IMG/VR virus record: IMGVR_UViG_3300030380_006721
Span: 6,580-70,579 of that record
DNA length: 64,000 nt
Direction: 5' to 3' (one strand)
From: a virus
Shown here in pieces: positions 12,089 through 32,341 of this stretch. Within the stretch, counting starts at the first letter, position 1. Each line of letters opens with the position of its first letter. The notes beneath the pieces were generated by a model. That model had not been told where the DNA came from. It worked only from the letters and a program-made list of their open reading frames with translations, and made no database searches. The translations under genes and the position numbers were made by a program.

Positions 12089-13660
12089 GTGAGCAAACGA
12101 CGTAAAGGCTCTGATTTTTTCGGGTGGGATAACCACGCGCCTAAGAGTACAAGCTTTGCGTTTAACAAAGTAAAAGGTTCAAACACTGAACGGTCTTTGA
12201 ACAGACCGATGCCTTGGCATGAAAAATTTAGACCTGAGGTAAACCTAAAAGACTTCAGCATTCTCTACGACTACAACTACGCATCCATGTGGACGCGCTG
12301 GAGAAGAGGATACGAACTTTTTATGTATACAAACCAGGCTTTGGTTGGTTTGAATTACACGTTCAGATACGCCATGAACGGGCAAGCCGGTTCTGGAGGA
12401 ACCGAAATTCCGGGGCTGATGTATATGTACCCGTCCACAGAGCAGGACATGGGTATGAGGATGGTGGTGATAAGACCAAGAGACAGCATAAATCTTCTTG
12501 ACTTAGGTCTTTCGATCAAAAGTGTTTTTAACTTTGACTTACTTAACAAAGTTATAGGCGTCGAACTCAGTAGCAACTTTGGTCCTCCGGTTTCAGATAT
12601 GACCGGTGAGCTTGTTTCAGATCGATTCCAAGCAGACGGTACGCCAAAAACAACTTATGGAAATTACACAGTGGTCGCTGTGGGAACCAAGGCTGGCGGT
12701 CCTCAGGTTCCGACAGGGGCGGCTGATCTGGATACGTTGTTTCTTTCAGTCAGCGAGGAAAAAAGTTTCACCACGATCGAGGATAAGTCATTTGCTAGTC
12801 CAGCTTTTGGAAACCCTCAAGTAGGAGAATTTTTATCAACCGCAATGAGGTTTGGGTGCAATTGCCCAGACTATTTAAATCGGGAAGATTTTAATCTTTA
12901 TAAATACGCTCAAAAGAAAACTTATCCATACACCGGCACTCAGGATCTGAAGCCTGGTACATACGACGCCGGTACAAATACATTTGATGGTGAGCGTCCT
13001 GTTGACACTCGAGATTTTCCTGGATTCGTAAGAGACTTTGGTTTTCTTTATACAAAAAATCTGTTTTTAGGTCCAGCTACTGGAGGAGACGGACCAGGCA
13101 CGTCTTACTCCGATCCAAACTTGCTGTTCTTCCAGCCAAAATTTTGTAAGCACATCTACGCATCGTGGTGGGATATGCAGAACAGGTTTGAAAACTATAA
13201 ATATTTGGATGCATTTTTACAGCAGCCAACAGATGAGCCTATGGACGGAAGGTATCGAGAATATTTTGAAATTCAACTAGGCAAACAAACTCGTTTCTTA
13301 CAGACAGCTAGAAGTTTGAATTGGTGGGAGGCTTATTCTCCTGCAAGAGACACAGTTCCTGATCATGTTCTTTACTCGGACATGAACCCAACCATGGTCA
13401 AAGTCTTAAACTTTGACACGCTTGCTTCAGGTGTTTCGGTGCCTCTTGTGCCGAGTGGATTTGTGATGTTTGACATCGATGAATTCAATCCTCTTCAGCC
13501 TGTCCCACCTGAAAACAGACCAATCATCGATGGAGGTCAATACTTTAATGGCTCTCCTAGTGGTGTCAGTGGCACGATTATTTATGATGGAGGCACTTAT
13601 CTAAACGGTGCGCCACTTCCTCCGCTGTTTAGCCCGATTATCAATGGGGGTACGTACTAA
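12089..13660 (+). CDS. Large virion structural protein
   Basis: This 523-residue protein starts with GTG. The N-terminus is basic, followed by a Trp/Tyr-rich domain (WTRWRRGYELFMYTNQ near 70). The C-terminal 40 residues hold three copies of a short motif of the form II(x)DGG(Q/T)Y, separated by NGSPSG- and NGAPLPP-type turns; the third copy is the last residues. Such terminal repeats suggest an attachment surface for the fibre encoded immediately downstream (1-base spacing). The exact tail role is unknown. Confidence 0.6.
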   Translation: MSKRRKGSDFFGWDNHAPKSTSFAFNKVKGSNTERSLNRPMPWHEKFRPEVNLKDFSILYDYNYASMWTRWRRGYELFMYTNQALVGLNYTFRYAMNGQAGSGGTEIPGLMYMYPSTEQDMGMRMVVIRPRDSINLLDLGLSIKSVFNFDLLNKVIGVELSSNFGPPVSDMTGELVSDRFQADGTPKTTYGNYTVVAVGTKAGGPQVPTGAADLDTLFLSVSEEKSFTTIEDKSFASPAFGNPQVGEFLSTAMRFGCNCPDYLNREDFNLYKYAQKKTYPYTGTQDLKPGTYDAGTNTFDGERPVDTRDFPGFVRDFGFLYTKNLFLGPATGGDGPGTSYSDPNLLFFQPKFCKHIYASWWDMQNRFENYKYLDAFLQQPTDEPMDGRYREYFEIQLGKQTRFLQTARSLNWWEAYSPARDTVPDHVLYSDMNPTMVKVLNFDTLASGVSVPLVPSGFVMFDIDEFNPLQPVPPENRPIIDGGQYFNGSPSGVSGTIIYDGGTYLNGAPLPPLFSPIINGGTY

Positions 13661-14254
13661 ATGACAACCACACCAGTAACTCTTCTTTCTAAAAGATCTG
13701 GTAATACATCTGATCGACCTTTAGATACAACTGTCCAGGCAGGAGAGCTAGCGATTAACTTTGCTGCCGCCGAAAACGGCCTTTACTTCAAAGACTCTGT
13801 TGGTGATATTCGTAAAGTAACCGGTGTCCACTATGGAACAACTGCTCCCAATAGCAGTCCGGCAGGCGCAACAGGTAATTCTGTAGGCGAGCTGTGGTTA
13901 GAAGACGGAACAAATCATTTTCTTAGGGTATGGGACGGTTCTGCATTCATCAAAATCGGCGCTGCTTTTGCTGACGCAGCTGGAACAGCGACAGTATCTA
14001 TCGCATCAGGTGCGATCGTTGCAAATAGCGCCTTAGTAGCTTCCGGTGCATTTGGTGCAGTCGTTGCCTCGGGTGCATTAGGCACTCCCATAGCTTCAGG
14101 AGCTTTACTTGCTTCCGGTGCTCTTGCTCTCGAAGTAGCTGTAATCAGTGGAGCTTTTCCAGCCGTGCCTGCTTCAGGTGTATTTGGGTATCGAGTAGAT
14201 CCGCCTAGCGGCCTTTATTTATCTTTTGGTGGAGGTTGGGTGCCTGTTTCTTGA
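13661..14254 (+). CDS. Short tail fibre or adhesin with ASGA repeats
   Basis: This 197-residue protein has an N-terminal motif RPLDTTVQAGELAINF, then GLYFKD...IRKV, which I recognise from cyanophage tail fibres (G-E-L-A-x-N...G-L-F-x-D). Residues 115-175 are (A/V)ASGA-type repeats, similar to the larger fibres at 21-27 kb. The C-terminus LYLSFGGGWVPVS closes the fold. It is likely a fibre or fibre-adaptor subunit. Confidence 0.7.
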   Translation: MTTTPVTLLSKRSGNTSDRPLDTTVQAGELAINFAAAENGLYFKDSVGDIRKVTGVHYGTTAPNSSPAGATGNSVGELWLEDGTNHFLRVWDGSAFIKIGAAFADAAGTATVSIASGAIVANSALVASGAFGAVVASGALGTPIASGALLASGALALEVAVISGAFPAVPASGVFGYRVDPPSGLYLSFGGGWVPVS

Positions 14255-14265
14255 TTGATATCGGA

Positions 14266-14799
14266 CTATCTCAGGGTCGCTTTGATTTTGCCAGCGTATT
14301 GGAAAAGGTTTCCGATAACTTCCGCAAGACACGCTTCAATGTCCGGAGCACCAACTTCACGCGCAACGTCATAGAGATCTTTCGCTTTGAAACCACAGTC
14401 CTCGAGGTTTCGCACATAAGTAACCAAGCTATCCCGTGACTCATAGCTTTTTACATTCTTGAAGTTCTTGTAAGCACCCATCAAACCCTTTTCGCACATG
14501 GGTAAGAGGTAATCCATGCTACGAACTTTTTCTGCTATGTGATTGAAATCACATAGGTGTCTTTTGTACTGCTCCTCTAAAAACTCACTCATCCCGAGTG
14601 AATTAGCTCCCTCAAGGTTCAGCGAAAGCAAGTTTGCTTGAATGTTCAAGTGATACAAATAAGAGGCCAGTTCGACCATCCCAAAGATGAGATTGTCGAC
14701 GCTGACCTCTTTTGTGATGATGACTTCTTCTTTTACTATTTCACCAGTCGGTGCTACAGCAGCACCGGTAAGCATCTGTTGAATATTTGAAGAAGTCAT
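14266..14799 (-). CDS. Dps/ferritin-like protein with degenerate metal site
   Basis: This 177-residue all-helical protein. Residues 45-100 follow the Dps pattern: LYHLNIQANLLSLNLEG in place of the HWN..G helix, FLEEQY in place of FEELY, then NHIAEKVRSM in place of DEIAERIR. The last helix pair resembles the Dps C-terminus. The ferroxidase histidines and the first aspartate are replaced and only the IAE glutamate remains, so iron oxidation is unlikely; a DNA-binding or structural role may remain. The fold call is by eye and moderately sure. Confidence 0.5.
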   Translation of the reverse strand: MTSSNIQQMLTGAAVAPTGEIVKEEVIITKEVSVDNLIFGMVELASYLYHLNIQANLLSLNLEGANSLGMSEFLEEQYKRHLCDFNHIAEKVRSMDYLLPMCEKGLMGAYKNFKNVKSYESRDSLVTYVRNLEDCGFKAKDLYDVAREVGAPDIEACLAEVIGNLFQYAGKIKATLR

Positions 14800-21353: not shown

Positions 21354-22703
21354 ATGCCTGAACGTAATAGCCCTGCGTGTCCACTTCACGGCGATTTACC
21401 CAGGGCACGAGCACCGCACAACTTCTTCGGAATTGTGTCGGTTGTCGATAACCTCATCGAAACCATTAGCGGCGTGGGAACTACTAGCTACACAAGATGC
21501 CCCTACGGATATCCACCTAACTTCGAAGGTGTAGTAAGGGCTCTTGAAGATTTAAACTCTACAGCTAGCGGCATCGAGGCTACCGGAGGACTCCTAGTCC
21601 CAGGTTCCGGAATCAGTATTACGACGAGTGGTCTTTATAGCATCATTGCAAGCCTGATTACTCAATCTCTACCGGGCTCTGGTGTATTAGGAGTAGCTAG
21701 CGGTGCAAACACTATTTTTGATGTAAATATCCAAGGCGAAGGTAATAACGATGTCGAGTACGACGGAAAACTAATTCAAATCTCTGGCACCAACGAAGGT
21801 GCCGTAGCTGTCGTCAGTGGTCTTGTTGGCGGCGATGGAATCATCATTACAGCAAGTGGCGACACTGCTGTCGTTAGTACTGATCTTGTTGGTCAAGGCT
21901 CAGTCGACTTCTCTTACAACTCTTCTCGTGTTGGAGTCATCTCTGGAACGTCTCAACAACTTCTTGTTGCTGGTTCTGGAACAAGCGTCACGCAAAGCGG
22001 GGATTTCCAAATCGTCGATGTTGGTGTTCTTGGCGAGCCCGGTATTGGCGTCAGCTACTCAGGTTCGTTTGTAACTCTCGAAAACCTGATCAGTACAGGA
22101 TCTGGTACGTCCGTGGCCTCTAGCGGGGACTTTAAACAAGTCAATGTTGGAGCACTTCCTGGCACCAATGTCACCATTGGCTACTCCGGCGCGTTCTTTA
22201 CGACAAACAGTACAGCCGAAGCGGGCGCTTCTGTGGTCACCGTTTCTGGCGAGCCAGGGGACAATTTCCTTGGCGGTTCGCTCTGGTTCGATACGAACGA
22301 AGGGCGCTTGTTCGTGTACGCATCAGGCAACGATGTTGCCAAACCAGACTGGTATATCGCAAACGCCGAAGCTCTCGCAATCAAGAGCGAAGTGCCGCCT
22401 TCCGGCACTGGTGGACTCAATGCTCCGCCTCGAGATGGCACCATCTGGTTCAACAACCTTATGGGTTCACTTTTCGTCTACGACGCTGCTACAAGCGGCT
22501 GGTACGAATCTGCTCCTTCGAGGACACCTTCTTATGGAGACACTCCTCCTGTTTACGCTGTTGATGGTGCTCAGTGGACCGATAGTCGCAGCAATGTCAT
22601 ACACGTATGGAACGGCACGCAATGGGCTGATGTTATCGCTAGCGGTAACCCTGCTGGCCTTACTACTGGCTCTGTTATTGGCCTGATCATGGGACTTAGC
22701 TAA
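21354..22703 (+). CDS. Tail fibre or adhesin
   Basis: This 449-residue protein starts behind GAGGAGGT. Residues 80-290 are Gly/Ser/Thr-rich beta repeats with motifs such as GSG.S...SG. From about 300 it has repeats of the type GSLWFDTNEGRLFVY, GTIWFNN..GSLFVY and GAQWTDSRSNVIHVW, a common fibre motif in cyanophages (G-x-(L/I)-W-(F/W)...L-x-V-Y). It ends with GLTTGSVIGLIMGLS, a signature shared with the next two large fibres. It is likely a trimeric fibre or receptor-binding protein. Confidence 0.75.
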   Translation: MPERNSPACPLHGDLPRARAPHNFFGIVSVVDNLIETISGVGTTSYTRCPYGYPPNFEGVVRALEDLNSTASGIEATGGLLVPGSGISITTSGLYSIIASLITQSLPGSGVLGVASGANTIFDVNIQGEGNNDVEYDGKLIQISGTNEGAVAVVSGLVGGDGIIITASGDTAVVSTDLVGQGSVDFSYNSSRVGVISGTSQQLLVAGSGTSVTQSGDFQIVDVGVLGEPGIGVSYSGSFVTLENLISTGSGTSVASSGDFKQVNVGALPGTNVTIGYSGAFFTTNSTAEAGASVVTVSGEPGDNFLGGSLWFDTNEGRLFVYASGNDVAKPDWYIANAEALAIKSEVPPSGTGGLNAPPRDGTIWFNNLMGSLFVYDAATSGWYESAPSRTPSYGDTPPVYAVDGAQWTDSRSNVIHVWNGTQWADVIASGNPAGLTTGSVIGLIMGLS

Positions 22704-22882: not shown

Positions 22883-23278
22883 GTGCTCTTATCTTTCAAA
22901 GCTGGTGAAACTATCGCTCTTGGCGATGCAGTAGCCGTGGATATGAGCACCTCCGGTCATATCCGGACTGCTCGTTCATCTGGTGATCTGGACGAAGCCA
23001 ACACAATTGGTGTTTCTGTAGACGCAGTAAGTGCAGGCACACTTTGCCGTGTGGTTACAGATGCTCAAGCTGTCGTTTACTCAGGTCTTGTTCCAGGGCA
23101 ACGTTATTTTGTCAGCGCAAGTGGAGGCAAAATAGTTGACTACCCAACATTTACTGCTGGATTTGATCAGCTTGGTGCATCTGGAGCTTATTTAGTAGAA
23201 ATGGGTACAGCTATAAGTTCTTCTTCACTAAGGATTTCGCCTCAGCAGCCTCGATATGTAATTAGTGGGTTTCTTTGA
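22883..23278 (+). CDS. Beta-rich virion protein
   Basis: This 131-residue protein starts with GTG after GGAGGTAAC. It has ETIALGDAVAVDM near 8, SVDAVSAGTLCRVVTDAQ, and PGQRYFVSASGGK near 74. The pattern 'value, change, PG.RYFVS' also appears in the next protein, so the two are related subunits. It is likely a fibre-attached or decoration protein. Confidence 0.6.
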   Translation: MLLSFKAGETIALGDAVAVDMSTSGHIRTARSSGDLDEANTIGVSVDAVSAGTLCRVVTDAQAVVYSGLVPGQRYFVSASGGKIVDYPTFTAGFDQLGASGAYLVEMGTAISSSSLRISPQQPRYVISGFL

Positions 23279-23317: not shown

Positions 23318-23833
23318 GTGCCCAACAGATCGATATTCAACCGCAATTACACAAGTTACCAGGCTGACGGTACAACTGTATATCTAGCTAACGGACAAGG
23401 AGTTGTCACCAACCCTGCTCCAACAGCTACTTTGACCGCTGGAGCTAATTTAATTGCTGGTGAAGTTGTCTCTGCAAGCGGTAATTTTGTAGTACCATCC
23501 ACTGCTCTGAGTGGGGTTAACGCTTATCAATTTTCTCCTATTGGTTTTGCTTCTGAAGCTGCCTCTAATGGAAGTGATGTAGTCGTAAATCTCGATGGTG
23601 TCATCAGTCTGACTGATGTCAATATCACTGCTGATACTGCTTTGATACCTGGTGAATATTATTACTTATCTAAATTTGAAGGTGAAGTAGTTCGTTTCAC
23701 AACAACTTCTGGGACAGTCACTGGTTCTGGAAGTAATGCATATCAAGCAGCAACAAGTCTTGGTTTAGCGATTACCTCAACACAATTGAGTGTGGAAATT
23801 TCGCCACCAGTCCTTCTCTATACTGGAGGTTAA
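23318..23833 (+). CDS. Beta-rich virion protein, relative of preceding gene
   Basis: This 171-residue protein starts with GTG. It has an ANLIAGEVVSASGNFVVPS segment near 45, and PGEYYYLSKFEGEVV near 114, the counterpart of PGQRYFVS in the previous gene. It is the second of two small beta proteins that precede the big repeat fibres. Role inferred from position. Confidence 0.6.
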   Translation: MPNRSIFNRNYTSYQADGTTVYLANGQGVVTNPAPTATLTAGANLIAGEVVSASGNFVVPSTALSGVNAYQFSPIGFASEAASNGSDVVVNLDGVISLTDVNITADTALIPGEYYYLSKFEGEVVRFTTTSGTVTGSGSNAYQAATSLGLAITSTQLSVEISPPVLLYTGG

Positions 23834-23844
23834 AAGGTTAAATC

Positions 23845-25356
23845 ATGGTAGTTCGCAGGCCGGTAGTTCTAGTCAGCGGCGCTCTAGCTGAGCTGCCTTT
23901 TGGTGACAGTATTATCACCACTGCTTCTGGTGGTCTTCTGACAGCAGGTAGTGGTCTTGTAGGTGGGGGAAACACAGATTCTACTATTCGTCTTGATGTC
24001 GCGTTTACTGCAGAGCCAAGTGGCCTGATTTACGTTGGCAACGAAATTGGAACTGACGGCGTTGCGCTTGCACGCTCATCCGCTGCTCTTGCTTCGGGTA
24101 ATGCTGCTCTCGCAGATTCAACTACTGCTCTGGCATCAGGAAATGCTGCGCTTGTTGAAGCAGAAGTAGCTCTATCTTCTGGTAACGCTGGTCTTACAGA
24201 GGCAGCAATTGCAATTGCTTCTGGTAATGCAGCTTTAGAAGTCGCTGCAGTAGCACTAAGTTCTGGCAACTCGTCACTGACACTCGGCGCAGCTGCACAG
24301 GCTTCTGGCAATGCCGCATTACAAGATGCCGCTACAGCACTCGCATCAGGTAACGCAGCTTTAGTTCTATCTGAAGAAGCTCTTGCCTCAGGCAATGCTG
24401 CCTTAGTTGATAATGTACGATCGCTTGCTTCAGGTAATGCCGCTTTAGCAGACGCCACTGAAGCTCTAACTTCTGGCAACGCCGGTTTAGCAGATGCTGT
24501 TACTGCTGTAGTTTCTGGCAATGCCGCCGTAAGTGATGCGGTAGATGCTCTTGCTTCAGGAAACGCGGCGCTTTTAGATTCTGAGCAGGCTCTGGCTTCT
24601 GGTGTTGAAGCTGTTCGAATATCTGTCGACGCTCTTGCTTCTGGTAATGCAGGTTTAGCAGATTCTCAAACTGCTCTTGCTTCTGGAAACGCGGCGACTG
24701 CTGATGCAAATCGAGCTCTCGCCTCAGGTAATGCTGCTGTCGAACTTAGCAACACAGCTTTGGCTTCAGGTCAAGCCGCTGTGGCCTTGGCTAACACTGC
24801 ATTGTCTTCAGGTAATGCTGGTCTCGCTGTTGCCAATTCTGCGATTGCTTCAGGTTCGGCCTCAATCGCTGTTGCACTTGCCGGTCTTGCTTCTGGTAAT
24901 GCAGGTTTAGCTGTAGCTGTAGAAGCTCAAGCATCAGGTAATGCAGCTCTTGAAGATTTAGCTGGTTCATTAGCTTCTGGTAACTCCGGAATCAGTATTG
25001 CTTTAGCCGCTCAAGCTTCTGGTAACGCAGCAATATCCGACGGTATTGTTGCTCTTGCCTCGGGTAATGCTGGTCTTGCTTTAGCTGCTGTTGCAGCTAC
25101 ATCTGGCAACGCTGCCATCGTTGATGCAACAGTCGCTCAGGCTTCTGGAAACGCTGCCTTAAGTCTGGCAAACACTTCACTTGCCTCTGGTAACGCAGCC
25201 CTCGCAGTTTCATCAACTGCTTTAGCTTCAGGTAATGCCGGTCTTGTGATTGTTCCAGTGGCGCAAGCATCAGGAAACGCAGCTCTCGAGGCTTTTGCAG
25301 CGAACCCAGGTCTTAGTACCGGGGCTGCTATTGGCCTAATCATCGCGCTCTCGTAA
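23845..25356 (+). CDS. Repeat fibre A: 29 tandem 14-residue units
   Basis: This 503-residue protein has three parts. Residues 1-82 form an N-terminal head. Residues 83-488 are exactly 29 tandem 14-residue units with consensus ASGNAALxxAxxAL and no insertion or deletion. Residues 489-503 are GLSTGAAIGLIIALS. The A/L/I spacing (a hydrophobic residue at every seventh position) fits a long coiled coil or another elongated trimeric fibre. The next gene has the same design. Confidence 0.8.
   Translation: MVVRRPVVLVSGALAELPFGDSIITTASGGLLTAGSGLVGGGNTDSTIRLDVAFTAEPSGLIYVGNEIGTDGVALARSSAALASGNAALADSTTALASGNAALVEAEVALSSGNAGLTEAAIAIASGNAALEVAAVALSSGNSSLTLGAAAQASGNAALQDAATALASGNAALVLSEEALASGNAALVDNVRSLASGNAALADATEALTSGNAGLADAVTAVVSGNAAVSDAVDALASGNAALLDSEQALASGVEAVRISVDALASGNAGLADSQTALASGNAATADANRALASGNAAVELSNTALASGQAAVALANTALSSGNAGLAVANSAIASGSASIAVALAGLASGNAGLAVAVEAQASGNAALEDLAGSLASGNSGISIALAAQASGNAAISDGIVALASGNAGLALAAVAATSGNAAIVDATVAQASGNAALSLANTSLASGNAALAVSSTALASGNAGLVIVPVAQASGNAALEAFAANPGLSTGAAIGLIIALS
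24091..25308 (+). repeat. 29 x 42-base in-frame tandem repeat (fibre A)
   Basis: 1218 bases encode 29 units of 14 codons. The amino-acid unit is well kept (ASGNAAL core), but third codon positions vary (GCT/GCA/GCC, TCT/TCA, GGT/GGC), so the copies are old or selected at protein level and not a recent slippage product. Confidence 0.85.
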
Positions 25357-25357
25357 A

Positions 25358-26866
25358 ATGACTCTGCGTAGAGGACTTGTTTATTCCGGCGGTTTCGTTG
25401 TTGAAAATCACGACGATGACGTAATTCCGATTACTGGTGATTTGATCGCCGGAAGTGGTTTAGGCGGTCGTATTTTTACGCTCGGTCAAGATAATTTTGT
25501 ACAAACTGATCTTCCGGACAATGCGTCTGGGCTTATTTATACCGCCGACGGCAAACTCGGTTTAGATGGTGTTGCTCGCGAAAGAGGTGTAATCGCGATC
25601 GCATCTGGCGATGCCGCTGTGGCATTAGCTGCAATTGCGCTCTCATCTGGTATTGCTGCAAATGTAGTTTCTGCCACCGCCCAAGCGTCAGGTAATGCAT
25701 CCATATCTCAATCGCTGACTGGACAGTCCATTGGTAACAATGCTCTTAGTTCTGGTGCAGAAGCACAAGCATCTGGCGATGCAAGTTTAGTAGTTAATAG
25801 AGATGCTTTAGCTTCAGGAAACGATGCTCTTGAAGATACAGCTGTTGCTGTCTCCTCTGGTAATTCAGGTCTGGCTTTTGCTGTAATAGCTGGAGCATCA
25901 GGCTTTGCTGCTGAATTTAATGCAAGCTCCGCTCTTGCCTCAGGCAATGCGGCCCTTACTAATAACGCTCAAGCTATTGTTTCAGGCACAGCAGCTGTAG
26001 TTAATTCGCAAACTGCTATTGCATCTGGTGCTGCTGCAATTGCACTCAGTCAAATTGGTATTGCTTCAGGCACTGCAGCGACTACGGACGCTGGACTCGC
26101 TCAGGCTTCTGGTAACGCTGCCTTGGTGGATGCAAATATCGCTTTTGCTTCTGGTGCAGCTGCCTCGGAACAAGCTGCTATCGCAACTGCATCTGGTAAC
26201 GCAGCCCTAAATCAATCAGAAAATGCTCTTGCATCAGGAAACTTATCTCTTGTCAATGCAGTTGAGGCTTTAGATAGATCTCAAGATTCTACAATCACGT
26301 CTATATTCACCATCTTCCAGGCTGATAATGCAGTTGAAGCCTCGGATGACGCTATTGCGTCAGGTGCTGCAGGCGAGGCGCTCGTTCCGACAGCAATTGC
26401 TTCTGGCGATGCCGTTCATGCACCTGCTGCTACAGCTTTAGCATCCGGCAACGCAGCTCTTGCTGAGATACCTGAAATTATTGCTTCAGGTAATTCTTCC
26501 GTTTCTGTGGCGCTTGTCGCTTTAGCTTCAGGCAACGCTGCCCTCGCAAAAACTTTTGAAGCAAGAGCTTCCGGCAACGCTTCTATTTCAGCGTCACTCA
26601 CGTCTATAGAAGTTGCTAACACTGCAATCGTTAGCGGAAATGCTGCCATATCCACTGGTGCCACAGCAACAACCAGTGGAGTCCTTTCAATTTCTCAAGC
26701 TGATCGTGCAATCGTATCTGGTTTAGAGGCTCAATCTTCTGGCAACGCCCTAGTTAGTGATGCAGTTTCTGCACTTGCTTCTGGCAACGATGCGTTATCA
26801 CTAATTATCAATAATCCTCCCGTGGATTCTGCAGGGATCATTGGCTTAATTATGGCGTTGAGCTGA
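25358..26866 (+). CDS. Repeat fibre B: 29 units, diverged paralogue of fibre A
   Basis: This 502-residue protein has an N-terminal head (1-81) related to fibre A (shared ASGLIYTAD..LGLDGVA versus PSGLIYVGN..GTDGVA). Residues 82-487 are again exactly 29 x 14 residues, but several units are degenerate (DRSQDSTITSIFTI) and units 25-27 are shifted by seven residues. It ends PVDSAGIIGLIMALS, as in fibre A. It is probably a duplicate that has diverged. Confidence 0.8.
   Translation: MTLRRGLVYSGGFVVENHDDDVIPITGDLIAGSGLGGRIFTLGQDNFVQTDLPDNASGLIYTADGKLGLDGVARERGVIAIASGDAAVALAAIALSSGIAANVVSATAQASGNASISQSLTGQSIGNNALSSGAEAQASGDASLVVNRDALASGNDALEDTAVAVSSGNSGLAFAVIAGASGFAAEFNASSALASGNAALTNNAQAIVSGTAAVVNSQTAIASGAAAIALSQIGIASGTAATTDAGLAQASGNAALVDANIAFASGAAASEQAAIATASGNAALNQSENALASGNLSLVNAVEALDRSQDSTITSIFTIFQADNAVEASDDAIASGAAGEALVPTAIASGDAVHAPAATALASGNAALAEIPEIIASGNSSVSVALVALASGNAALAKTFEARASGNASISASLTSIEVANTAIVSGNAAISTGATATTSGVLSISQADRAIVSGLEAQSSGNALVSDAVSALASGNDALSLIINNPPVDSAGIIGLIMALS
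25601..26818 (+). repeat. 29 x 42-base in-frame tandem repeat (fibre B)
   Basis: 1218 bases encode 29 units of 14 residues, exactly as many as in fibre A. The seven-residue phase shift in units 25-27 shows that a heptad is the smaller structural unit. Confidence 0.8.
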
Positions 26867-27909: not shown

Positions 27910-28974
27910 ATGGCAAGGAAATACGCTGGGCGTCAAGGGCAAAAGGTACAAAGCACTTCTTTGAGCGCACCAGGTGCATGGATTTCACCTACTGAAGCAG
28001 CTCGTGAAAAAAGTGGCGGAGCATGGCCCAGTGCTGTTCCCGCTGGTGCAGCCGCCTCACCGGTTGGAAGTTTATCGTTTGCGATGACAAGCGGTGTGAC
28101 TGACACTGCTGTGGCCGGAGGAAGATTTCTTGTATGTAACGGAGAGGATGTAAGCAGAGTTGATCAGGGCGGACTTTTCGGTGTCATCGGCACGTCCTTC
28201 GGAGTAGGGGATGAAGCTACGACTTTTGGAATACCCGATATGTTTGACGGGTATATCTATGCAAAAGGTTCGAGTGGCTCAGGGGTTTATCCATTAGGAA
28301 GCGGTAAAGTCGGAGAGGGCCATCTTCATAACTGGTTCGGAGTCAGGTCGAGGCAGGGTCCTGACCGAAACCGAACTGGTAATGATCAAGCTTCTGCTGC
28401 TGGACCTTCTGTTGTGGTTCACGCCAGTACCACTTTTGGCGATATTCAGAATGAAATGAAAAAAAGGGAATTCGTTCCCATGGTTAATGTCGGCGGCGGC
28501 ACTATGCAGGCCGGTATGGCTATTCCTTTCTTGTGGCCTGGTGAGGAGGGAAACCTCATAGGTTTTGCTGACAACCTGTTCGTTGTCGCAAGCGGACAAA
28601 ATATAAGTCGTTCAGAGTATGCAGATCTTTTCGGTCTGTTTGGAACACATTTTGGAACTGGAGACGGGTCTACTACATTTGGTGTTCCGGATCTTAGGGG
28701 TGTTTTTGTTGCAGGATCTCGTCAAGAATACTCTGATGGATTCCAACCATCAGGTGTGATTGCTGGTTCGGGTTTCCTGAATGATACTTTTACTGCTCAT
28801 TATCATATTTTTGAAGGCGGTAACTGGAACAGTCAGCAAGGTGGTGCAGGTAACCAGTCTCGAACTAATCAAGCTTCAACTCCTCAATCAGGAGTTAGTC
28901 AGGGACCTGCTGACGGAGAAAATAGAGCTGATAACATAAGTGTTATCTGGGCAATCGTTGCTTCTAACTCGTAA
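27910..28974 (+). CDS. Double tail-collar domain protein
   Basis: This 354-residue protein contains two copies of the phage tail collar domain. The first (about residues 66-118) has FLVCNGEDVSR, GTSFGVGD and TTFGIPDM. The second (about 205-270) has FVVASGQNISRSEY, GTHFGTGDGSTTFGVPDLRG. Collar domains sit at the base of short tail fibres, as in T4 gp12. The C-terminal 70 residues are Gln/Asn/Gly-rich and end in ISVIWAIVASNS. Confidence 0.85.
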   Translation: MARKYAGRQGQKVQSTSLSAPGAWISPTEAAREKSGGAWPSAVPAGAAASPVGSLSFAMTSGVTDTAVAGGRFLVCNGEDVSRVDQGGLFGVIGTSFGVGDEATTFGIPDMFDGYIYAKGSSGSGVYPLGSGKVGEGHLHNWFGVRSRQGPDRNRTGNDQASAAGPSVVVHASTTFGDIQNEMKKREFVPMVNVGGGTMQAGMAIPFLWPGEEGNLIGFADNLFVVASGQNISRSEYADLFGLFGTHFGTGDGSTTFGVPDLRGVFVAGSRQEYSDGFQPSGVIAGSGFLNDTFTAHYHIFEGGNWNSQQGGAGNQSRTNQASTPQSGVSQGPADGENRADNISVIWAIVASNS

Positions 28975-28982
28975 GGAGAACC

Positions 28983-29528
28983 ATGGCTACTGGACAAGTT
29001 ATTATGATGCTGGCAGATCAGGGAGCTCAGTTCTCTGATGGTTCAATCAACTACGTCAAGTTGAATGGACAGTCCGTATCAAGAACTGAGCACGAAGTGC
29101 TTTCGGCAATTTGGCCTAGTGGAGCATACGGAGGAGGCAACGATACTGAACCGATGCACATGCCTGACACTGATGGCATGTATCTCCGTGGTTACGCTTT
29201 TAACAGCACCAACGATCCGGAAAAGGCAACTAGAACTGCGTTATCAGGTGCTCTACCCGTAGGCAACCAGGTAGGATCATTTCAATCAGCACAAATTACT
29301 GCTCACTTTCACGTATCTGGTTCGCAGAATGTTCCAGGTCCTCGACAACAGCAAGGCGGAGGAGGCGAACCGGCAGGACAGCGTGAACAGCAAAACTTCA
29401 GTCAAAATAACGCCGTCGTTAGATTTGCACAGGAAGCAGACGGTCGGTACATGGAAGTATCAACTAGCGAAGATGAAGTTTTTGACGTCGATCACACTAT
29501 CTGTTATTTCTATGTTTGTGACGCTTAA
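28983..29528 (+). CDS. Tail-collar domain protein
   Basis: This 181-residue protein starts behind AAGGAG. It carries one collar domain: YVKLNGQSVSRTEHEVL, AIWPSGAYGGGNDTE, MHMPDTDGMYLRGYAF. It ends VFDVDHTICYFYVCDA and has a Gln/Gly-rich middle. It is likely a fibre or baseplate subunit working with the preceding gene. Its end overlaps the convergent oxygenase gene by four bases. Confidence 0.8.
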   Translation: MATGQVIMMLADQGAQFSDGSINYVKLNGQSVSRTEHEVLSAIWPSGAYGGGNDTEPMHMPDTDGMYLRGYAFNSTNDPEKATRTALSGALPVGNQVGSFQSAQITAHFHVSGSQNVPGPRQQQGGGGEPAGQREQQNFSQNNAVVRFAQEADGRYMEVSTSEDEVFDVDHTICYFYVCDA

Positions 29529-30163
29529 ATTATCTGCAAGTCAAATCCACTTAAGTTAGATTTTTCTCCGACAGTACCAGTCGGAAACGTGTTGAAACTT
29601 AGTGTAATTCTGTCTTCATTTTCCATGTTGTTGTCGACAGAGTGAATTAAATTTGACGGAAAAATAATCATTTTTCCTGGGGTTGGCGTGTGTTTATGAA
29701 TAATATTTTCTCTTTCAGATTCATAATAAGCGGGAAATTGATTCGAAAAATCGTATGGATTTTCTCGACTAAACCATGTTCTTCCGGAATTGCCTTGTAA
29801 ATAGATAATTCCGCTCAGAAAGGACCAGGGGTGCCTATGAGCGTGGTGCCATTGTCCAGGTCGACTACGATTTGCCCAAAAAAGACAAACTTTCAAATTT
29901 ATATTGTTGTTGTACTCTAAATCTGTCGTCACTTCTTTCAAACACTCTTCTATATATCGAGTGTGTTCTGCAAAATAAGGATTTTTGTGAAGTGATTTAC
30001 TTCCTGGCGAGGATTCTCCGTATTCTTTCTTTCCTTTATATCTTCCGTAACCGTCTGTAATTTTGTGAGTGATAATAGTTTCAATAGCTTCTTCTACAAG
30101 GTTTTTCGGGTATTCAAACTCATATAGTTCTGTTGGCAATATCGGCAAACGTTGGAAACTCAT
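29525..30163 (-). CDS. 2OG-Fe(II) oxygenase (TIGR02466-like)
   Basis: 212 residues from the ATG at 30163 (a TTG twelve bases upstream is the other option; GAAG lies seven bases before the ATG). WHHAHRHPWSFLSGIIYLQG supplies the first metal ligands, with an H-x-H pattern and SG..YL as in this family. FPSNLIHSVDNN supplies the distal His, and DRITLSFN gives the 2-oxoglutarate Arg. It is likely a hydroxylase; substrate unknown. Part of a cluster of four such genes. Confidence 0.8.
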   Translation of the reverse strand: MSFQRLPILPTELYEFEYPKNLVEEAIETIITHKITDGYGRYKGKKEYGESSPGSKSLHKNPYFAEHTRYIEECLKEVTTDLEYNNNINLKVCLFWANRSRPGQWHHAHRHPWSFLSGIIYLQGNSGRTWFSRENPYDFSNQFPAYYESERENIIHKHTPTPGKMIIFPSNLIHSVDNNMENEDRITLSFNTFPTGTVGEKSNLSGFDLQII

Positions 30164-30210
30164 TACGATCTTCAAGCTGAGCTATTATAGTGCCATAGCT
30201 TTAGACTGCG

Positions 30211-30795
30211 ATGAGTCTTTTAGATTACGTCAGAACATATAAAACTCCTGAAAGCTTGTCAGAACAGCTGGATGAGCATTACGAACGTCTAGAACAAAAT
30301 ACCTGGGAACGACATTCTTGGTTTAGTTACAATCCGCAAGAAGGTAACTCTTCACATTCCGATGAAAATACAGACCCACTTGTACAAGATGTTTTCGAAT
30401 TAGATTTATCGAAAAATTTAGCAGAGCATGCAATTCAATCTTACATAAACGATATGACAACTGAATATAACAAGGAGTGTTCTCTAATATCATCATTTAC
30501 AAGAGTGCGCTTGAATAGATATTCAGAGGGAGAATGTATGCGTGTTCATTGGGACGCTATTCACTCTATCTTCGATGGTGATTACAAAGGTGTACCTGTT
30601 TTGAGCATCGTCGGATTACACAGAAAAGCAGAAAAAGGAGGAGATTTTATAATCAGAACTCCGCTTGGAGAAGAAAAACAATTCTTGACTGAAAATAACA
30701 CGGTGGTTGTTTTTCCTTCAACTTTCATGTATAACCATGAAGTTACAACCGTTCAAAAAGGTTGTAGAGACTCCTATGTAGCTTGGGGATTTTGA
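30211..30795 (+). CDS. 2OG-Fe(II) oxygenase (prolyl-hydroxylase-like)
   Basis: This 194-residue protein has RVHWDAIH (H-x-D metal ligands), a distal His in FPSTFMYNHEV, and CRDSYVAWGF where the Arg would bind 2-oxoglutarate. It is a double-stranded beta-helix fold. The stop is followed by the ATG of the next oxygenase with one base between, so the pair is co-translated. Confidence 0.8.
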   Translation: MSLLDYVRTYKTPESLSEQLDEHYERLEQNTWERHSWFSYNPQEGNSSHSDENTDPLVQDVFELDLSKNLAEHAIQSYINDMTTEYNKECSLISSFTRVRLNRYSEGECMRVHWDAIHSIFDGDYKGVPVLSIVGLHRKAEKGGDFIIRTPLGEEKQFLTENNTVVVFPSTFMYNHEVTTVQKGCRDSYVAWGF

Positions 30796-30796
30796 A

Positions 30797-31354
30797 ATGG
30801 ATTTTTCCGTACCTCACATCAACTGCAGTGCTGACCCTTATTGGGATGGGTATCGAACCCAAATCCTAGAGTCTGTTGAAAAATTTAAAAGTGAGCATCC
30901 TGAAGATGCTGTAGATGGAGACGGAATTATCACCGATTATCACTACAACGTAAAAAATAAAATTACACCAGAGTACAAAGAAGCAGTATATAAAAGTATG
31001 ACCGGCGCGATTATGTGGACAGCAAGAGGTTTTGACAAAGATTACCGACGTCTAAAAATCAAAAACCTGTGGTTTCAAGAAACTTCAGGACCTGTGTCAC
31101 ACGGAGTTCATACACACGGTCCTCTAGGGCTTTCGGGTGTTTTATTCGTCGATTATGATCCCGAAGTTCATAAAAGCACTCGGTTAATTTCACCTCAATT
31201 GCATCCTTGGGAGGGAACACATATTGAGGAAGAGCCTTGGGTGGAAGAAGGAAACGTCCTTATTTTCCCCTCGTACTTACTTCATGAACAACTTCCAAGT
31301 TTTTCAACTAAAAAAAGATTAATTGTTGCATTCAACTTGCACTACGAGGAGTAA
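30797..31354 (+). CDS. 2OG-Fe(II) oxygenase
   Basis: This 185-residue protein has VSHGVHTHGPLGLSGVLFVD (H-T-H and SG..F.D), IFPSYLLHEQLPSF (distal His) and KKRLIVAFN (Arg), the full set of TIGR02466-type motifs. The gene is directly downstream of another oxygenase. It probably hydroxylates a peptide or small molecule; no substrate can be deduced. Confidence 0.8.
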   Translation: MDFSVPHINCSADPYWDGYRTQILESVEKFKSEHPEDAVDGDGIITDYHYNVKNKITPEYKEAVYKSMTGAIMWTARGFDKDYRRLKIKNLWFQETSGPVSHGVHTHGPLGLSGVLFVDYDPEVHKSTRLISPQLHPWEGTHIEEEPWVEEGNVLIFPSYLLHEQLPSFSTKKRLIVAFNLHYEE

Positions 31355-31379
31355 ACTATAAACAGGTCGCACCATATGC

Positions 31380-31766
31380 ATGGTCGATTCGGAACAGGAT
31401 CTAGTATTCAGCCTTCAATGTTTACAAAAGAAGTCTGCTAGAAAACGGTTCCGAAGAAGCATTCTGGACGAATGGCCGGAGTGTGCTTATTGCGGTCGTA
31501 AGCACCCAACGACACTCGATCACGTGATCCCCCGAGCTCAGGGAGGAAAACAGCATCGCCACAATTTGATCGGGGCTTGCGGTGCCTGTAATCTTGAAAA
31601 ATCTGACCAGACTTGGTTTGTGTGGTACAGAAGCCAAATTTTTTGGACACTCGAAAGGGAGGAGAGAATTTTAGGTTGGATTAATCAACCACAATTCGAA
31701 CCACCTGCTCCTATTTTTGTTAACTGGATGGAAAAAGGGACTTTATTACTGCCAAGCGCAGCCTAA
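31380..31766 (+). CDS. HNH endonuclease
   Basis: This 128-residue protein has PECAYCGRKHPTTLDHVIPR, then GGKQHRHNLIGACGACNLEK, the complete C..C...DH...N...C..C HNH motif with the zinc-binding cysteines. Residues after 95 are helical (W-rich). It stands alone between oxygenase genes, as typical for a free-standing homing-type or repair nuclease. Its end overlaps the convergent oxygenase by four bases. Confidence 0.9.
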   Translation: MVDSEQDLVFSLQCLQKKSARKRFRRSILDEWPECAYCGRKHPTTLDHVIPRAQGGKQHRHNLIGACGACNLEKSDQTWFVWYRSQIFWTLEREERILGWINQPQFEPPAPIFVNWMEKGTLLLPSAA

Positions 31767-32341
31767 GGTTTCCAGTTATACCAACCGGTCATAATAATTT
31801 TTTCTTCAGAGGGTGATGCCACTCCGTGGTGTGTATGGGTGAAATCGGGAGGCCAGATCAAAAGCTTGCCTTTTTCAGCTTTTTCCTCATGATCAAAATG
31901 GACGAATCTTGTTCCACCTTTATCTTCAACGGTGTTTAAATAAAGCATCCACACGAGCATCCTACTTTGAGTGAGCTCACATAATCTTTCGCAATGTTTC
32001 ATATGGAAACCTCCTCCAGGTTCATATCCCTGCACCGCTAAATTTTCGCCCATATGAAAACTCGAGTCTCCTAGCACAGGAAACTGCACAGTTACATAAT
32101 TAATTACTGAATTCCACAAATGCTCTAAAGCTTTCACTAAGCAACCATAGGTATACGCTTTTTCGATAGACATCCTAATATCAGTTGAGTCTTTAGCCTC
32201 TTTACATACGCCTACATCGCCGTCTGCGTTTGCAGTAAGACCTGGACCACCCATGGTTTCTTTGTTTACTTTGTACCACTCAATTATTTCATCACAAAAA
32301 TCTGTATCTTGAGCCTGATACGATCTAATAAAATTTTCCAC
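31763..32341 (-). CDS. 2OG-Fe(II) oxygenase (prolyl-hydroxylase-like, H-x-E variant)
   Basis: This 192-residue protein has GGGFHMKHCERL, where the metal pair appears to be H-C-E instead of the usual H-x-D. WPPDFTHTHHGVASPSEEK gives the distal His and KIIMTGWYNW the cosubstrate contact. Asp-to-Glu is unusual and may lower or change activity. The gene follows the small membrane genes but is behind a minus-strand terminator. Confidence 0.7.
   Translation of the reverse strand: MENFIRSYQAQDTDFCDEIIEWYKVNKETMGGPGLTANADGDVGVCKEAKDSTDIRMSIEKAYTYGCLVKALEHLWNSVINYVTVQFPVLGDSSFHMGENLAVQGYEPGGGFHMKHCERLCELTQSRMLVWMLYLNTVEDKGGTRFVHFDHEEKAEKGKLLIWPPDFTHTHHGVASPSEEKIIMTGWYNWKP

Follow-up and report, generated by a model that had tools for sequence, protein, structure and literature searches.

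The window analysed here, a stretch of 64,000 nucleotides (64 kb) lying inside a source virus record of 74,689 bases, carries two neighbouring genes, A and B, which as judged from their sequences are clear paralogues (Table 1). Gene B follows directly after gene A, with one base between the stop of A and the start of B, and the two products are built alike: 81–82 residues form an N-terminal domain, the next 406 make up the array (29 × 14), and the last 15 are a tail that ends in IGLIxALS. The preliminary description of this DNA had placed the arrays at residues 83–488 of A and 82–487 of B, each of 406 residues or 29 units of 14, and these coordinates and counts proved exact.

Table 1. Genes and gene segments of the putative fibre locus (positions in the window)
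Feature	Position	Strand	Length	Description
Upstream structural gene	21354..22703	+	449 aa	ends in VIGLIMGLS, like the tails of A and B
Small gene	22883..23278	+	131 aa	same cluster; phrog_4368, unknown function
Gene just upstream of A	23318..23833	+	171 aa	weak, below-cutoff match to Phage_cement_2 (PF09956), E 5.8e-4
ORF A	23845-25356	+	503 aa	
Fibre A N-terminal domain	23845..24090	+	82 aa	GSGLxGGG fibre motif; common to other fibre genes of related phages (trees, alignments, paralogue families)
Fibre A stalk	24091..25308	+	29 units × 14 residues	residues 83-488; consensus ASGNAALxxxxxAL; no indel in 12 homologues
Fibre A units 17-18	24763..24846	+		Asn of SGN lost: unit 17 in all genomes, unit 18 in half
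Fibre A C-terminal tail	25309..25353	+	15 aa	ends IGLIIALS
ORF B	25358-26866	+	502 aa	
Fibre B N-terminal domain	25358..25600	+	81 aa	paralogous to the A N-terminal domain
Fibre B stalk	25601..26818	+	406 residues = 29 units by register	residues 82-487; more degenerate than A; half-unit (7-residue) phase shifts; predicted helix
Fibre B units 17-18	26273..26356	+		charged interruption without SG; same index as the irregular A units; mean of 3.8 and 3.9 charged residues per unit
Fibre B C-terminal tail	26819..26863	+	15 aa	ends IGLIMALS

The array of A is highly regular: serine and glycine occupy unit positions 2 and 3 in 232/232 units from eight genomes. That of B is looser, and its “units” are counted by register; in the window SG is in phase in 23 of the 29 units, the exceptions being unit 4, which reads SIG, and units 17, 18, 25, 26 and 27, which have no in-phase SG. 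Across the eight genomes the SG of B is displaced by exactly 7 residues in 22 cases, which points to an underlying period of 7. At the DNA level the units of an array share on average 56% identity in A and 45% in B, and Tandem Repeats Finder reports 3.2 copies of a 21-nt period and nothing more; divergence as strong as this between units indicates that the array is old.

Array length is fixed in the close relatives of the window. All ten distinct genomes of the viral contig collection in which both genes are complete (the window counted) are 29/29, with zero indels in the array of A and zero in that of B. Throughout these genomes A is 503 aa long and aligns without gaps at 63–97% identity, and B is 501–504 aa long at 46–89% identity, every gap being confined to the N-terminal domain. 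Identity at four-fold-degenerate sites is 0.30–0.47 in both arrays; synonymous change is therefore saturated. In alignments with seven of these genomes the upstream structural gene, conserved about as well as A, has 0, 2, 5, 5, 4, 2 and 5 gap openings, and gaps occur in most of the other neighbouring genes too; the 171-aa neighbour, with zero indels of its own, counts against this contrast. As a repeat array is expected to change its unit number more readily than a plain protein, selection on length is the natural reading, and the proposal of the preliminary description that length is under selection is supported by the absence of array indels at saturated synonymous divergence, set beside the 2–5 gaps of the upstream gene in six of the seven comparisons. 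In two contigs the reading frames of the twin genes are broken (L008:2029-3508 and L044:12482-15500), possibly through errors of assembly or sequencing.

A search with the upstream structural gene drew in 80 related loci, three of which (L049, L053 and L056) have the twin genes at the corresponding place and in unchanged order, but with 8/8 units; both proteins there are 211 aa long (84 residues, 8 × 14 or 112 residues, and 15 residues). The equality of the two arrays goes beyond chance because it persists in relatives, at 29/29 in ten genomes and at 8/8 in three. The preliminary description had held that different unit numbers in the two genes of homologous phages would speak against joint fibre formation; among those of the 80 loci that carry both genes, no twin pair with unequal numbers was found. 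Unequal stalks occur only in a tandem pair that is not of the twin type (L101/L158), with 3 vs. 1 units and unrelated C-terminal domains, so that stalk equality is not a law for all pairs. All relatives of the A/B pair are metagenomic contigs.

Some relatives carry three tandem paralogues that share the A/B-type N-terminal domain, with 3/3/3 units in the triplets fully inspected (L162 and L152); a program count gives 3 units for genes two and three of additional triplets as well. An automatic count of 5 units in the first triplet genes was rejected after inspection of the sequences, since the extra SG sits in the C-terminal domain. In the L152 triplet (618, 249 and 245 aa) only one protein has the large C-terminal region, and all three keep 3 units although their heads differ by ~370 residues. 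Lone fibre genes vary in unit number, with 7, for example, in L149 and in L115. Equal stalks recur at the L012/L013 loci: the two fibre genes there (L013:7860-8651 and 13272-14072) differ in their N-termini, but each has ~6 ASGNAAL units, an identical insertion of 3 residues interrupts unit three in both, and their C-terminal domains are homologous.

We propose that A and B, as paralogous subunits of a fibre, share one stalk, lying side by side, parallel and in register, as an alanine-rich coiled coil with length-matched repeats, and we regard this proposal as evenly poised between being right and being wrong. The two proteins would pack against each other along the whole stalk, so that neither gene could gain or lose units unless its partner did likewise; the N-terminal domains would anchor or nucleate the stalk; and the short C-terminal helix xIGLIxALS, which also ends the product of the upstream structural gene, would form a shared end cap or docking site. 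Taking ~0.15 nm for each residue, 29 units would give a stalk of ~60 nm and 8 units one of ~17 nm. The preliminary description had suggested that the two proteins form one fibre together, alternating or bundled. Its side-by-side sense gains indirect support, as lengths change jointly (29/29 and 8/8), and its end-to-end sense loses ground, because an end-to-end chain needs no equal lengths. We infer physical co-assembly, and whatever stoichiometry goes with it, from comparisons of this kind.

A sharper comparison comes from the units themselves. When units of equal index are compared, the conservation profiles of A and B are correlated (rho 0.50, permutation p 0.004), a value equalled in 0 of 28 circular shifts, and the antiparallel arrangement gives rho 0.12; the correlation drops to rho 0.20 and 0.41 when A and B are taken from disjoint sets of genomes. 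The main irregularity lies at units 17–18 in both proteins, where B is charged and lacks SG and A lacks the Asn. We consider the register correlation suggestive.

The main rival to a shared stalk holds that each protein makes a homo-oligomeric fibre of its own, and that the two fibres sit at neighbouring sites and have the same plane or partner to reach, so that their lengths are matched geometrically. It explains 29/29 and 8/8 equally well, and the tail motif, which A and B have in common with the upstream protein, could give two such fibres a joint docking site. Structurally known phage tail fibres, moreover, are usually homotrimers, as are gp33 and gp34 of cyanophage A-1(L) (PMC10966104). 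These two proteins, the short and the long tail fibre (STF gp33 and LTF gp34), resemble A and B as elongated receptor-binding appendages of cyanophages, virion presence and receptor binding being putative for A and B; they differ in that each is a homotrimer made from a single gene, and the passages of that account considered here describe no length-matched paralogous partner. Separate fibres do not, however, predict irregular units at the same index in A and B, nor equal short stalks in all three genes of a triplet whatever their heads. We find this arrangement rather unlikely and, going by the gene comparisons, would prefer one shared stalk to two fibres of equal length.

It is also conceivable that equal length was merely inherited from the duplication, later equality having arisen through gene conversion or a fresh duplication in each group, with no co-assembly. 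A and B are, after all, paralogues, and diverged DNA units make slippage rare. The order of events bears directly on this view. In a tree of the end domains (N-terminal domain, last two units and tail; ~130 columns, long branches), A29 and A8 are split from B29 and B8 at 99/98, and a single clade of A29 and B29 is rejected (p-AU 0.009); in a tree of the N-terminal domain only, which includes more paralogues, B29 and B8 stand together at 96/92, and A8 leans to the first gene of the triplet phages. The N-terminal domain alone does not reject A29 with B29 (p-AU 0.228) and marginally disfavours A8 with B8 (p-AU 0.065), which leaves some room for inherited equality. Against it, the array ends are orthologous, reading PxAQASGNAAL in A and NxPx in B, and conversion would thus need to leave both of them untouched, and zero indels at saturation require selection anyway. 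We judge inherited equality unlikely. The end-domain topology suggests that the duplication is probably older than the length change and that both genes changed together: the likely sequence, which favours the shared stalk, is duplication first, then a joint change of length that separated 29/29 from 8/8. The preliminary description had offered a recent gene duplication as another explanation, and this is not borne out, as the end-domain tree sets the duplication before the split of the long and short groups. Weighing against the shared stalk, the step between 29/29 and 8/8 amounts to a single evolutionary change.

The fold of the stalk is most likely a multi-stranded, alanine-rich α-helical coiled coil, which we prefer without regarding the matter as settled. 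Unit position profiles place Leu at 7/14, Gly/Ala/Ser at 3/10 and Ala at 6/13, which corresponds to a heptad with Leu at a, a small residue at d and Ala at g; power at period 7 dominates, and B slips in phase by 7 residues, as in the core pattern of an α-helical coiled coil. AlphaFold2 models B, with moderate confidence, as a helix over residues 71–484 with two short loops only and a separate C-terminal tail helix. Charged residues are nearly absent and SG is invariant in A, both unusual for a coiled coil.

For A, AlphaFold2 gives instead a β-solenoid with a strand of 11 residues and a turn of 3 per unit, at pLDDT >90 over much of the array. If this were the true fold, with one 14-residue coil per unit, the array would be a compact rod of ~14 nm and not a long coiled coil; the invariant SG suits a turn, and hydrophobicity in A has a strong period-2 term besides that at 7. 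The model is confident, however, in only one of five predictions (78.6 vs. 33–38), has no significant match in the PDB, and stands against the long helix modelled for the less regular paralogue B. A β-solenoid derived from near-perfect repeats is a known failure of AlphaFold2 (PMC11795689), and we set the model aside as a probable repeat artefact on account of the near-perfect repeats, the one model in five and the lack of a PDB match; a β-solenoid stalk seems improbable to us.

The coiled-coil reading has a counterpart of mechanism outside phages. Honeybee silk proteins AmelF1-4 form a heterotetrameric coiled coil of related chains with small residues at d and g (PMC12284834). Like A and B as we picture them, these are related alanine-rich helices with coiled-coil regions of similar length that make up one heteromeric rod; unlike A and B, they belong to an unrelated family of four insect silk proteins packed antiparallel, and their heteromeric assembly is measured where ours is inferred. 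The likeness is one of analogy, not kinship.

The nearest isolate, and the sole one found, is Synechococcus phage S-EIV1 (KJ410740), a distant relative of the phage in the window. The major head protein is 70% and the portal ~42% identical, and gene order is similar; S-EIV1 nevertheless has no homologue of A or B, and its own fibre gene (78221-731) carries a different, TG-rich repeat. A gene at 14266-14799 on the − strand of the window encodes a protein with 43% identity to the S-EIV1 DNA-binding ferritin-like protein and matches no Pfam family.

The triplets of S-EIV1-like uncultured phages (~615 aa, e.g. L162, L150 and L157) resemble A and B in their N-terminal domain (RRPLVxxxG...GSGLxGGG...DG), in their ASGNAAL units and in being tandem paralogues with equal unit numbers; they differ in having three genes with short stalks and large C-terminal heads, whereas the window has two genes with long stalks and a 15-aa tail only. 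Paralogous partners of matched stalk length, as expected of a heteromeric stalk, thus occur at 29/29, 8/8 and 3/3/3, with the non-twin pair L101/L158 as the exception. It is possible that this phage group builds hetero-oligomeric fibres from two or three paralogues, with stalks held to one common length that shifts in all of them together, a length-matching rule that would permit different heads or surfaces on one fibre, although here our doubt slightly outweighs our confidence. If A and B do share a stalk, the heteromeric fibres of these phages would come in naturally graded, matched lengths; they would let one see in nature how a pair of genes stays at one repeat number through long periods, and could supply alanine-rich protein rods of defined length. 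Equal repeat number would then also become a simple rule for guessing which fibre paralogues co-assemble in metagenomic phage genomes. In the three tandem fibre paralogues at L162:1857-7854 (also in L150, L157 and L164), at least two proteins carry ~50-aa repeats like YDSTNDRVVIAYRDxGNSxYGTAIVGTVSGTSISFGTAVVFES, which resemble a β-propeller head; the region is absent from some L152 and L160 paralogues, with the stalk unchanged.

Database matches place the pair only loosely. A tblastn search of isolated phages with A and B gave no match, either for the N-terminal domains or for the arrays, which the low-complexity filter may mask; Pfam and PHROGs yielded no family for A or B except by chance, none of the tail fibre repeat families of Pfam matching above its curated cut-off. 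PDB sequence matches to A were alanine-rich designed helices (E ~0.004-0.2), which we judged to reflect composition and not homology; a PDB search with the B profile gave no match, and the N-terminal-domain profile gave one weak match, to tail collar fibre gp4 (9d93, E 0.01). Relatives of the upstream structural gene were absent from genome contigs of bacteria and archaea.

Gene organisation is that of phage fibres: an N-terminal fibre module, common to fibre genes with varied C-terminal heads, precedes a repetitive stalk within a structural gene cluster, and tail-collar-domain genes lie directly downstream (27910-28974 and 28983-29528). Homologues of the upstream structural gene that end in the tail motif come from twin-gene phages, and many homologues in phages without twins end in ...KVWNGTxWIxx or similar. 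A perfect co-occurrence of motif and twins was considered and dropped: L049 has twins and no motif upstream, and L115 has one motif-bearing 7-unit gene without the motif upstream. With these exceptions the association is strong, and the motif may cap or dock the stalk. That the twin proteins are capsid (head) fibres, attached via the cement-like proteins encoded alongside, is in our view doubtful: the weak cement match just upstream of A and the weak matches of an L152 triplet C-terminal domain to Phage_cement_2 and a head-decoration family point that way, and the adjacent tail-collar genes and a weak match of the 8-unit A homologue to a tail-fibre family (E 0.001) point to the tail as the putative place in the virion. 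The tail-collar genes are followed immediately by a block of ~2.8 kb (29525-32341) that holds four 2OG-Fe(II) oxygenase genes of two families, on both strands, with an HNH gene among them.
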